64,000 nt of DNA. Source: Prochlorococcus sp. MIT 1223. GTDB lineage: Bacteria; Cyanobacteriota; Cyanobacteriia; PCC-6307; Cyanobiaceae. Position 1 is the first letter of the stretch. Each line of letters opens with the position of its first letter. A program made the translations under genes and the position numbers. Under the pieces are notes generated by a model, which saw only the letters and a program-made list of their open reading frames with translations, made no database searches and was not told the DNA's origin. Where the stretch lies: the NCBI RefSeq assembly GCF_034092465.1, contig NZ_CP139303.1:1330865-1394864 (forward strand). The letters run 5' to 3'. Shown one piece after another: positions 4,939 through 59,895 of this stretch.

Positions 4939-5562
4939 ATGCCTTTTGAAAATCAACAGCGGCTAACCCGTAGGAGAAGCTCTGCAGGACCAACACCTCC
5001 AAGAAGACCTCTAGGGGGTGAATCAGATTCAATGCGTCAAGGGCCTAGGCCAACATTCTTGACACTGAGAGATCATGGCAAGGTATATGTTGCTGAATTG
5101 CCTAATCTTTCTGATGGCCAATTAGCCCATATCTCTAAAGAAGTTGAAGAGGTTCTAGAAAGTCTTGAGAGGCGTATACAAGATTTGCAACAGGAAACTA
5201 GTAATGGTTTTCGAGATAATGACACCTTAATCAAAGCAACAACTAAGCATGAGGTGACCCAGAGATTTATAAGTGCTATCCAAGACGAACAAGAGCATCG
5301 TAGAAATAATCCTGCATTGAAAGATGCTGCTTCTGAATCTTTACCATTAACGTTTTTAGAAGTTGCTCGACATCGTTTACCAGGTGCTACTTTTGACTCT
5401 TTATTACGAGAGGCTCTAGAAGCTTGTGCTCAAGATGAAAAAGCAATAAATGAAGATGTTCTTAAAGATAAAACTTCCTCGAGCTCTATTCCTGAAAAAA
5501 TTATTGATCTTCCATCTCCTTCTCAAAATGGGATGCCAGTAGTAGTAAGTCCTGATTCGTAA
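4939..5562 (+). CDS. Conserved picocyanobacterial protein of unknown function
   Basis: I do not recognise a named family. The 207-residue protein has a basic, proline-rich and probably disordered N-terminus (about 1-40: RRRSS, TPPRRPLGG). A middle section (about 45-105) reads as amphipathic helix with LSDGQLAHISKEVEEVLESLERRIQDLQQE, which looks coiled-coil capable. A compact helical part follows (about 105-160: LTFLEVARHRLPGATFDSLLREALEACAQ), then a polar tail. There is no signal peptide or membrane segment, so it is probably cytoplasmic. It follows purM in the same direction after 156 nt. Confidence 0.7.
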   Translation: MPFENQQRLTRRRSSAGPTPPRRPLGGESDSMRQGPRPTFLTLRDHGKVYVAELPNLSDGQLAHISKEVEEVLESLERRIQDLQQETSNGFRDNDTLIKATTKHEVTQRFISAIQDEQEHRRNNPALKDAASESLPLTFLEVARHRLPGATFDSLLREALEACAQDEKAINEDVLKDKTSSSSIPEKIIDLPSPSQNGMPVVVSPDS

Positions 5563-5800: not shown

Positions 5801-6232
5801 TTACTCTAAAAAGTCTATTATCCCTTCAGTTATATATTGAGCCATAGGTCTTACATGCTTATTGATTTCTCTTTCTCGGACTTGCCACTTAGTTGCCATT
5901 TCTTTTGACATTTTTTGTTCTCTTACGAATGTAATCATTGCATTAGCTAGGTATTGAGGCAATGCAAGATCATTTTTCTCTGCAAGTTCTTCCCATTTAT
6001 CTTTGTTTATATTACTTATATATTTAAGATCTTTATTTTCACTGTATTCATACAGTTCTGTAAAGCCTATATGTATAAACCTTTTGCCAAGTTCGTCTAA
6101 GAAGCTTTTTGGTTGATCAGGGTCTTTGTATTCACTGATTATTTTGTTAATTAAGTCGTTATTGGTTTCATCTCCTTCTTTTATTCCATCAAGAAGCTTG
6201 AAAAAATTGCTGAATTCAATTGATTCCGACAC
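5801..6232 (-). CDS. Hypothetical protein
   Basis: A 143-residue acidic, soluble, mostly helical protein with no family I recognise. The N-terminal half is rich in D, E and K (FFKLLDGIKEGDETNNDLINKI). The C-terminal half contains QYLANAMITFVREQKMSKEMATKWQVREREINKHVRPMAQYI, with conserved-looking aromatic and basic residues. No signal peptide or membrane helix. It starts an accessory-looking stretch of AT-rich minus-strand genes. Its upstream region carries the putative sRNA at 6421. Confidence 0.6.
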   Translation of the reverse strand: MSESIEFSNFFKLLDGIKEGDETNNDLINKIISEYKDPDQPKSFLDELGKRFIHIGFTELYEYSENKDLKYISNINKDKWEELAEKNDLALPQYLANAMITFVREQKMSKEMATKWQVREREINKHVRPMAQYITEGIIDFLE

Positions 6233-6420
6233 AAAAAATAATTAAATTAACTTGTAATTACTATACTTAAAATAATGATTGCCACTATACATATATTCAT
6301 CGTTGTAATGAAATTATTAATTTTCCATATTTAAGATCCAATCAGGAATTCAAATTTTGCTGATTATGTTAACGAGTGTTTCTACCTAATGACTTAAGGC
6401 TAGTGGAGGCATTATGAAGT

Positions 6421-6485
6421 TAATGGACACTCCTCACACAAGTTTGTCCAGTAGGGCGCTGCTCGATGAGGGCGCCCATTTCTTA
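6421..6485 (+). ncRNA. Putative Yfr10/Yfr1-type sRNA, copy 1
   Basis: The 11-mer ACTCCTCACAC (6429-6439) is identical to the ultraconserved unpaired motif of the cyanobacterial sRNA Yfr1, which the Yfr10 family shares. Here it lies in the 17-nt loop of a hairpin (stem TGGAC 6424-6428 with GTCCA 6446-6450). Four nt later comes a GC-rich terminator-like stem, GGGCGC 6454-6459 with GCGCCC 6472-6477. A weak promoter may precede it (ATGACT at 6389, CATTAT or ATTATG near 6410). That gives an RNA of about 60 nt. The motif held in a loop, rather than between two stems, fits Yfr10 better than Yfr1. The 5' end is inferred. Confidence 0.68.
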
Positions 6486-6633: not shown

Positions 6634-8007
6634 TTAAAAGCTATCAAAAAACGAAATATAAAGCTCTGGGTAGTAATCTCCATTCCTTTTGAAATCAAAA
6701 AGTCCACTCCCATCTGCTTCATTAATATGGAAAACACGTTTTGAGATTTCCTGAAGTATGATTGGTTCTATTCTAATTGAAAGCCAATATTTTATATCTG
6801 AATCATCTATATATCTAAAAAAATCATTCCCTGTAAAATCTATTATTTCAAACCCATCAAAATTTATTAAAATTATTTTACTACCTGAATTAACAATAAA
6901 AATCTGATCATATTCTGGGTATGAATTCTTATCATTTTTATTTTGAAGCAATGTTGTAAGTTTTTCACCAATAGAATTAAAGTAATCTTCTATAAACTTA
7001 GTTGAAGGTGTTGTGAAATTTTTATGCTTTATATCAAGGGCTATCCTGGAAGAGAATGATTCTATAAAATGTGATTTCCTAAACTCAAAATCAATAGATA
7101 AATCTTCTATATTATCTTTATCAAAAAAAGTTTCATTTATATCAATCACATTACCGGGTTCGAAATATATACCTTTTGACGACAAAACTTTTTTAGAACT
7201 ATATGAAAGTGTTTTATATGGGTTCAATAAGAAGCTCGTTGTTTTATGCCAATCCATTGATTTGCCAACGATAATATGATTACCAGCTACTGGCATGAAA
7301 TACTCAAAATTTGATTGATTTAAAAAAGAAATAGCCTGATCCTCATAGTTATTTCTAATGGCTTTTGCTATATTTAGTTTCTCTTCATGGGATAAGTTTA
7401 GATAACTTGATGGATAACCACTTCCACCTGAAAATGGAATTAAAGCTAGCAAAGACTTAGTATTTAAGGAATTAATAAATTTTGCATGCTTAGAATGAGC
7501 TATATTGTCATTAGAAAATAAAATCAAACCATCTTTTGATTCAATTAGTAAAGAGGAATCTACTAATTTATTTATTGGACTATCATCCTCAGGCGGAATA
7601 CACCATGTTCTAAATGTGCCATTTGATTCTTGTTTATATGGATCCTGTATTAAAAACTTATCTTGAATCGACTCACCCAGTTTAATTAAAAGTTTCTTCT
7701 TGAGGAAACAACGCCCTTCTTCTCTATTTAAAAAAATAAATTTAGCATTAGGACTATAAGTTAATATTTTTTTTATTGATTGAAAGCAACAATGATCTGA
7801 ATGGACATGACTTATAAAAATATGAGTGATATTTGTTAGATCTGAAATACTAATACTAGGAGGTGGAAACTGAGTCCAAGCGCCTCCATAGATTGATTCT
7901 CCAAACCAAGGGTCTGTAATTAATTTTGTCTCCCCTTGTGAGAAAATAAAACTAGATTCACCTAAAACCTTTATCTTGAAGTCATCGATATTTTCCTTTA
8001 ATCGCAT
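6634..8007 (-). CDS. Metallo-beta-lactamase-fold hydrolase
   Basis: A 457-residue protein with an N-terminal metallo-beta-lactamase fold. It has ITDPWFGES near residue 30, the metal-binding HVHSDHCC near residues 68-75 and LILFSNDNIAH around 160. The arrangement resembles the UlaG-like and CMP-sialic-acid hydroxylase-like branch, in which such a domain acts on sugar nucleotides or lipids, but no Rieske domain is present. The C-terminal 200 residues (SIDFEFRKSHFIESFSSRIALDIKH onward) are not recognised. The gene is AT-rich, flanked by a gene-poor stretch and an sRNA, and may have been acquired laterally. Substrate unknown. Confidence 0.72.
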   Translation of the reverse strand: MRLKENIDDFKIKVLGESSFIFSQGETKLITDPWFGESIYGGAWTQFPPPSISISDLTNITHIFISHVHSDHCCFQSIKKILTYSPNAKFIFLNREEGRCFLKKKLLIKLGESIQDKFLIQDPYKQESNGTFRTWCIPPEDDSPINKLVDSSLLIESKDGLILFSNDNIAHSKHAKFINSLNTKSLLALIPFSGGSGYPSSYLNLSHEEKLNIAKAIRNNYEDQAISFLNQSNFEYFMPVAGNHIIVGKSMDWHKTTSFLLNPYKTLSYSSKKVLSSKGIYFEPGNVIDINETFFDKDNIEDLSIDFEFRKSHFIESFSSRIALDIKHKNFTTPSTKFIEDYFNSIGEKLTTLLQNKNDKNSYPEYDQIFIVNSGSKIILINFDGFEIIDFTGNDFFRYIDDSDIKYWLSIRIEPIILQEISKRVFHINEADGSGLFDFKRNGDYYPELYISFFDSF

Positions 8008-8734: not shown

Positions 8735-10159
8735 ATGGCGAAAAGAATTAGAAAAAGAGATCTAATAATTGAGTTCCTGCAACTGATTACAGGAATTGGA
8801 GTGAAGAAAGGTAAGAAGGCGGCACCCAGATTCGAACTGGGGATAAAGGATTTGCAATCCTCTGCCTTACCACTTGGCCATGCCGCCAACGAAATTGATG
8901 ATCCAGTATCAGTCAATCATATTAATCAATCTAATGAAAAATTTCTATTCATATCGAATGGACATGGTGAGGATCTTATTGCATTGCGTGTTTTAGAAAA
9001 ACTTTATCAACTTCATCCAAATAATTCTTTTGAGATTCTTCCTTTAGTAGGAGAAGGGAAGGCATTTGCAAGTGCAATCTCAGAAGGTTGGTTAGTCCAA
9101 AAAGGGCGATCCCAAGCCTTGCCTAGTGGTGGCTTTAGTAATCAAAGTTTGCGTGGATTGTTTGCTGATCTTTTGTCTGGATTATTAGTGAATTTGTGGA
9201 ATGATTGGCGTTATATAAATTGGGCAGCTAGAAATGGAAGATTAATTGTCTCAGTTGGCGATCTACTCCCTCTTCTTTTGGCTTGGTCTAGTGGCGCTCC
9301 TTTTGGATTCATTGGAACTCCAAAAAGTGATTACATTTGGACAAATGCTTTTGGGAGAAAACCTAGTGATTTTTACCATCGCTTAAAAGGCTCAGAATGG
9401 GATCCTTGGGAATATGCGTTAATGAGATCTTCTCGCTGCAGATTTGTCACTGTTAGAGATGAAATAACTGCTCAAGGACTAAGAAAACATGGGGTTTGTG
9501 CTAGTGCCCCTGGTAATCCAATGATGGATGGCTTTTCGAAAGAACCTTGTCCTGATTGCTTGAAGCAATACAGGCGATTGATTTTGCTTTGCGGTAGTCG
9601 CATGCCAGAAGCTTTAAAAAACTTCAAGCGGATTATTAATTCTCTTGAGCTTGTTAGGACCAAAGATTCTCTTGCAGTTTTTGTCACACTTGGTCAAGAC
9701 CCATCAGTAGAACTTATTGAAGAACATTTAAATTTTGCTGGTTATTCTAGATCGTTGGATTATTGCGCAGATATAAATGCTAAATCTGCTTGGGACAAGG
9801 GTCCTTTAAGAATTTTTTTAGGACCTGGATGTTTTAGTGATTGGGCTATATGGGGCGAACTTGGTTTAGCTAATGCTGGCACGGCTACAGAGCAACTAGT
9901 AGGACTAAGGATCCCGTGCCTTTCACTTCCAGGTAAAGGTCCTCAGTTCAAGTATGGCTTTGCGAGTAGGCAAAGTAGATTGCTTGGTGGGTCAGTTCTG
10001 CCTTGTGAGAATCCAAAACTCTTTGCTGAACGAGTCGAATTGCTTCTAAAAGACGAACAATTTAGGAAGCAATTGGGTCTTATTGGAGAACAAAGGATGG
10101 GCTTACCTGGTGGAAGTAAATCTTTGGCTTTTTTAATATCTAAAATGCTTTTGAGCTAG
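8735..10159 (+). CDS. Lipid-A-disaccharide synthase-like (LpxB-related) protein
   Basis: The recognisable protein begins near 8939 with FLFISNGHGEDLIALRVLEKL, a GT-B fold start. It continues with LPLVGEGKAF, the block LGPGCFSDWAIWGELGLANAGTATEQLVGLRIPCLSLPGKGPQFKYGFASRQSRLLGG, and a C-terminal helix. This is the cyanobacterial LpxB-related conserved family (about 400 aa). The exact acceptor is unknown. The start is a problem: the open frame reaches an ATG at 8735 but runs antisense through tRNA-Cys (8817-8887). No ATG, GTG or TTG lies in frame between the tRNA and the conserved part. ATT codons at 8894 or 8921, or a TTG inside the tRNA, are alternatives. Confidence 0.7.
   Translation: MAKRIRKRDLIIEFLQLITGIGVKKGKKAAPRFELGIKDLQSSALPLGHAANEIDDPVSVNHINQSNEKFLFISNGHGEDLIALRVLEKLYQLHPNNSFEILPLVGEGKAFASAISEGWLVQKGRSQALPSGGFSNQSLRGLFADLLSGLLVNLWNDWRYINWAARNGRLIVSVGDLLPLLLAWSSGAPFGFIGTPKSDYIWTNAFGRKPSDFYHRLKGSEWDPWEYALMRSSRCRFVTVRDEITAQGLRKHGVCASAPGNPMMDGFSKEPCPDCLKQYRRLILLCGSRMPEALKNFKRIINSLELVRTKDSLAVFVTLGQDPSVELIEEHLNFAGYSRSLDYCADINAKSAWDKGPLRIFLGPGCFSDWAIWGELGLANAGTATEQLVGLRIPCLSLPGKGPQFKYGFASRQSRLLGGSVLPCENPKLFAERVELLLKDEQFRKQLGLIGEQRMGLPGGSKSLAFLISKMLLS
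8817..8887 (-). tRNA. trnC: tRNA-Cys (GCA)
   Basis: Read on the minus strand it begins GGCGGCATGGCC and ends in TGCCGCC plus discriminator U, giving a 7-bp acceptor stem. The anticodon loop is TTGCAAA with anticodon GCA (cysteine), and the T-arm has GTTCGAATC. CCA is not encoded. U73 is the expected identity base for tRNA-Cys. It lies antisense within the open frame of the LpxB-like gene. Confidence 0.96.
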
Positions 10160-59752: not shown

Positions 59753-59818
59753 GTCAGAACACTCCTCACGCAATTAGTTCTGATAATTAGGGCACCTCGT
59801 GAGCAGGGTGCCCTTTTT
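59753..59818 (+). ncRNA. Putative Yfr10/Yfr1-type sRNA, copy 2
   Basis: A 7-bp hairpin (TCAGAAC 59754-59760 with GTTCTGA 59777-59783) displays ACTCCTCACGC in a 16-nt loop, one base from the Yfr1/Yfr10 motif. An 8-bp terminator follows, AGGGCACC 59789-59796 with GGTGCCCT 59807-59814, then a T run. Upstream is TTGACA (59717-59722) with TAGAAA 18 nt later, so the start is probably about 59753. The build (loop motif, short spacer, GC terminator) is that of copy 1 at 6421, with little other sequence shared. Confidence 0.75.
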
Positions 59819-59895
59819 AATGAGAAAATACCTGAGAAGCTATGAAAAGCATTTAGTTATATACACCTTCTTTTCTTTCTATTTTTGACAAAACT

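Follow-up and report, generated by a model that had tools for sequence, protein, structure and literature searches.

Yfr1 is described as near-universal in cyanobacteria, and the tentative explanation so far for its loss in LLII/III Prochlorococcus is a Yfr10 RNA in SS120. According to the available sections of PMC6778093, Yfr1 represses a porin 5'UTR in MED4 and Yfr2 relieves this repression, and Yfr10 lies directly upstream of Yfr2 in high-light (HL) strains. The same sections describe Yfr10 homologs as lacking conserved structure and synteny, and they apply broad Yfr10-like criteria (presence of the Yfr1 motif in an RNA that is not Yfr1).

We analyzed a 64-kb window (the whole stretch of DNA under study, numbered from its first base) and identified a Yfr10-like small RNA gene at 6421-6481 (+). 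"R1 RNA" refers to the family defined by our covariance model R1, which the window copy, itself included in the model, matches at 82.5 bits. The predicted transcript likely extends from about 6424 to 6484. It begins with a 5' hairpin (6424-6450, +; stem 6424-6429/6445-6450, loop 6430-6444 by folding) carrying the motif ACTCCTCACAC exactly at 6429-6439 (+), the sole exact copy within the window; TCCTCACAC is perfectly complementary to GTGTGAGGA at porin starts. The preliminary description had placed the exact 11-mer in a 17-nt hairpin loop; the motif is where it said, in a loop of 15 nt, with the first A of the motif paired to the closing U of the stem. The GC-rich terminator-like stem that it reported after the loop was recovered at 6454-6477 (+), with one such site observed in the intergenic region versus 0.1 expected; the U-run behind it, at 6478-6485 (ATTTCTTA), is weak. 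The segment 6413-6485 folds with an energy of -22.3 kcal/mol (z -1.99; 6 of 200 shuffles at least as stable). A possible, unproven -10 box, TATGAA, lies at 6413-6418 (+), in a region where 64 of 75 copies have TA(T/G)ANN; a sigma-70 scan did not report this hexamer and gave no promoter match for the window R1 RNA. The 11-mer alone is within chance: with up to one mismatch it has 2 matches in the window (the second at 59761-59771) versus 0.66 expected, 19 of 100 shuffles reach 2, and the whole genome contains 2 exact copies versus 1 for a reversed control. The R1 RNA stands far above chance because it is conserved (82.5 bits, BLAST identity in relatives and covariation), not because of the 11-mer itself.

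BLAST matches in relatives show 77-93% identity over approximately 56-64 nt in dozens of genomes and stop near the edges of the RNA. With a 96-base query, matches were obtained in 82 of 400 genomes of the family. Matches of 18-28 nt in Synechococcus-like genomes cover the terminator half only and were rejected, the stretches read (L107-L120) being coding-like and free of the hairpin motif. Model R1 places the family in 58 of the 400 related genomes with 1 to 6 copies each (matches below about 50 bits are weak), including 13 of the 14 genomes of genus g10, to which G011 belongs. We take G011, G101 and G094 to be SS120, MIT9211 and MIT9313, respectively. All 49 named stretches found in an exact-pattern search are Prochlorococcus, AG-435-K18 included; viral contigs and phage sets contained no R1 match, and viral or phage carriage was rejected. 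In some low-light Prochlorococcus, G021 and G102, up to six R1 matches were found per genome (e.g., L077 of G102), which suggests copy-number expansion.

For structural analysis, 75 of 97 segments were retained, and alignment A1 was built from 56 of these together with one divergent second RNA (L122:1327), which slightly lowers the pairing counts; near-identical or damaged copies, chosen by eye, were omitted. Across the 57 aligned copies, 97.8% of pair cells were paired, compared with 43-64% in slid controls. Double changes occurred in 9 of 15 pairs, with 66 such cells versus 21.1 in shuffles, and none of 500 shuffles reached these values. Both stems show compensatory changes, the terminator-like stem having double changes in 7 of 10 pairs and the outer pair of the motif stem being C-G in 30 copies and G-C in 26. 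The motif is mostly unpaired over 75 R1 copies (mean 0.85; below 0.5 in four). Conservation of loop and stem in relatives, on which the preliminary description had staked its proposal, is present in these copies, and the proposed Yfr10-like RNA of about 60 nt is further borne out by tandem copies beside Yfr2 in relatives.

Like Yfr10 of MED4 (RF02362), the R1 RNA presents the 11-mer in a stem-capping loop ahead of a terminator stem, and it has copies upstream of Yfr2 in relatives. It differs from Yfr10 in being shorter, in its strongly conserved GCGCTGCTCG terminator, and in also occupying its own locus away from Yfr2; the window R1 RNA is not directly upstream of a Yfr2 homolog, as Yfr10 is in HL strains. 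With Yfr1 (RF01116) it shares the 11-mer and the complement at porin starts, whereas Yfr1 carries the motif between two stems, at a guaB-trxA locus, and the R1 RNA in a loop. In the covariance search suggested by the preliminary description, the window R1 RNA scored 12.7 bits with the Yfr1 model (gathering 38) and 21.8 bits with the Yfr10 model (gathering 43), below gathering in both cases. It combines the exact 11-mer with a single-stranded loop motif, as in the broad criteria of the available sections of PMC6778093, and we conclude that it counts as Yfr10-like when the term is used broadly, as published, and lies outside RF02362 as drawn. Within low-light Prochlorococcus, R1 structure and synteny are both conserved, in contrast to the general statement on Yfr10 homologs in those sections. 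A second Yfr10-family RNA, overlooked by the preliminary description, is located at 59753-59828 (+) with the motif variant ACTCCTCACGC in its loop; it passes the Rfam Yfr10 threshold (RF02362, 43.9 bits; gathering 43) and scores 32.9 bits with R1 (fold z -2.79).

Genome G011 contains two exact 11-mers, in agreement with the count of "twice in SS120" in the available part of PMC2190773, and only its R1 member lies in a hairpin with a terminator. The Yfr10 detected by Northern blot in SS120 (PMC6778093) is probably the R1 ortholog, and the existence of the RNA in one strain is likely known already; in the sections available, that RNA is published without a conserved locus, structural family or porin sites. 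Yfr104 of MIT9313 likewise carries the Yfr1 motif in those sections, and G094 has two R1 members, a comparison by description only. Yfr106-108 of NATL2A, which the text section of PMC7368042 describes without sequence, could be R1 RNAs. Yfr103, at 290-328 nt in the available part of PMC5069720, was rejected as an R1 RNA. Yfr10-like RNAs are known already, and the R1 subfamily, its locus and the porin-site evidence appear to be new.

The R1 locus has the conserved gene order panC/cmk, purM, a 207-aa gene, R1 RNA, tRNA-Cys and an lpxB-like gene. The purM identity has Pfam support; panC/cmk and lpxB-like, as well as guaB and trxA elsewhere in this text, are presumed names assigned from sequence. 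On the same strand as the R1 RNA, the 207-aa gene precedes it in 21 genomes and the lpxB-like gene follows it in 16; 22 genomes have at least one of the two. In the window these anchors are the 207-aa gene at 4939-5562 (+) and the 474-aa lpxB-like gene at 8735-10159 (+), both without a Pfam match, and tRNA-Cys (GCA) at 8817-8887 (-); a tRNA follows the R1 RNA in L039, L042, L049 and L050. The window R1 RNA sits in a 400-bp intergenic region flanked by a minus-strand 143-aa ORF and an MBL-fold gene (6634-8007, -; PF13483). This gene, inserted between the R1 RNA and tRNA-Cys, was found only in the window genome among those compared, beside none of the other R1 copies, and it is not part of the RNA system. 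The accessory patch of the preliminary description therefore shrinks to the MBL-fold gene, the R1 locus being conserved in 22 genomes. The 143-aa ORF (5801-6232) has no Pfam match, and its relatives occur near R1 copies in several genomes (L070, L079 and L194).

A second locus type comprises 19 R1 copies in 18 genomes, each with a Yfr2-like motif 100-590 nt downstream, an arrangement like that of Yfr10 in HL strains (PMC6778093); Rfam Cyano-1 matches were found beside 9 of 20 R1 loci tested, 8 of them above gathering. None of the three Yfr2 copies of the window genome lies in the 64-kb window, where Cyano-1 gave no match at gathering, and the window R1 RNA is far from all of them. At L122 (1000-1400; G173), an R1-type hairpin, a Yfr2 and an RF02362-like RNA (35.4 bits) follow one another, so that two distinct motif hairpins flank one Yfr2.

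The preliminary description had further proposed that this RNA took over the role of a lost Yfr1. For the window genome this does not hold: the search of the rest of the genome that it recommended found a true Yfr1 at 541994-542050 (59.9 bits; gathering 38) between guaB-like and trxA-like genes, and therefore nothing needed replacing there. Yfr1 was matched in 336 of the 400 genomes. By hand count, the 58 R1-positive genomes divide into 29 with Yfr1 and 29 without a match, several of the latter being incomplete, and Yfr1 was found in none of the 13 R1-positive genomes of genus g10. G063, G101 and G115 each have a single exact 11-mer, and it lies in the R1 RNA. Common ancestry confounds the link between R1 and the loss of Yfr1.

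Predicted targets were sought at porin genes, after a one-mismatch search for the 11-mer complement had detected a porin start site in the window genome. The porin is por_somb, an iron uptake porin (NF033921, 183 bits); it has no match in Pfam, and its solved relatives are SLH-domain proteins. Porin homologs were present in 15 of the 18 genomes searched. We read 30 of 34 matching 5' regions, of which 29 entered the conservation and binding analysis (L242, from an HL genome, was left out). Before the ATG, at least 7 nt of GTGTGAGGA are kept in 28 of 30 porin genes and all 9 nt in 21; in Yfr1-less genomes the corresponding counts are 17 of 17 and 12. The exceptions are a G094 gene that carries one substitution and the gene of G018 (HL), which has 5 nt. 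Conservation reaches 2.1 bits per position within the GTGTGAGGA block and does not extend to its flanks. Some of this conservation is expected in any case, since GAGGA is itself a Shine-Dalgarno sequence, but the conserved block also takes in GTGT, which is not required for a Shine-Dalgarno sequence. In 7 genomes, GTGTGAGGA occurred 2-8 nt before an ATG 13 times, versus 3 for a reversed control; 11 of the 13 are at porin genes, and the frames that start at the remaining two are only 9 and 2 codons long. G115 had no start-placed site under the strict GTGTGAGGA pattern (8 nt only). Genome-wide, 11-mer complements showed no excess (13 versus 16 in the control). In a literature search of mostly open-access main texts, we found no published report of porin-site retention in Yfr1-less strains.

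Binding was estimated from co-fold energies with loop-only shuffles as controls, which replaced duplex folding without intramolecular structure, a method that did not discriminate, since between 9% and 76% of shuffles did as well. In the co-fold analysis, 14 of 15 RNA-porin pairs beat their loop-shuffled controls (at most 4 of 200 shuffles as good); the pair in G017 (L235) failed, with 50 of 200. Predicted binding of the window R1 RNA to each of the three Yfr2 copies of its genome beat the controls as well (0, 1 and 4 of 300 shuffles). The predicted energy at the porin 5'UTR was -8.2 kcal/mol for the window R1 RNA versus -17.1 for Yfr1, and at Yfr2 it was -9 to -12 versus -15 to -17, as expected if the R1 hairpin must open.

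Considering these data, we think it likely that the R1 RNA is a trans-acting Yfr10-like sRNA that represses translation of por_somb porins as Yfr1 does and is counteracted by Yfr2. The RNA would be made from its own promoter as a transcript of about 60 nt ending at the intrinsic terminator, and its hairpin would display TCCTCACAC in single-stranded form. The loop may pair with GTGTGAGGA overlapping the ribosome-binding site of por_somb mRNAs and block translation, as Yfr1 does in MED4, and Yfr2-family RNAs, with GUGAGGAG at their 5' end, would lift the block by binding to this loop. In the window genome, the R1 RNA would act alongside Yfr1 and the second Yfr10; where low-light relatives lack Yfr1, it would probably be the main carrier of porin control.

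Pairing with Yfr2 could itself be the function, in that the R1 RNA would mainly titrate Yfr2-family RNAs and thereby free Yfr1, with no porin action of its own. Many R1 copies adjoin Yfr2, the window R1 RNA is complementary over 8-10 nt to each Yfr2 copy of its genome, and Yfr10 shields Yfr2 from RNase E in vitro (PMC6778093, available sections). We nevertheless regard titration as unlikely, since Yfr1-less strains have nothing to free, yet retain the R1 RNA and the porin sites, and the window copy is distant from any Yfr2. A broader role is improbable, in which porins would be minor targets and the RNA would act mainly within the coding sequences of genes for energy and carbon metabolism, as described for MED4 Yfr10, whose targetome partly differs from that of Yfr1 and whose peaks lie mainly in coding sequence, with atpA, atpC and csoS among the targets (PMC6778093, available sections); among real genes in the 7 genomes, full start-placed sites occur only at porins, in a count confined to start sites. 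That the window copy is a decaying remnant, redundant through Yfr1 and the second Yfr10, is very doubtful: its U-run and promoter are weak, Yfr1 is present, and of its genus-mates G001 (76% complete) has no R1 match and G002 has a copy beside Yfr2, but the full motif and both stems are intact and its 82.5 bits are typical of the family.

Returning to the R1 RNA as a porin repressor, a takeover from lost Yfr1 in relatives is plausible and fits the genomes that lack Yfr1 and keep both the R1 RNA and the porin sites. For the Yfr1-less low-light clade (the genera of G011, G101 and G017), we lean slightly toward the view that the R1 RNA at its fixed locus replaced Yfr1 as the dedicated por_somb repressor. 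The old Yfr1 sites would have been kept while a hairpin loop took the place of an inter-stem linker in presenting the motif, which would amount to the replacement of one sRNA by a non-homologous or paralogous one. The tentative explanation of Yfr1 loss by the SS120 Yfr10 can thereby be tied to a defined RNA family with a conserved gene position and concrete targets, and is therefore testable by one reporter assay. The data suggest an sRNA regulon whose target sites outlast one of its regulators.
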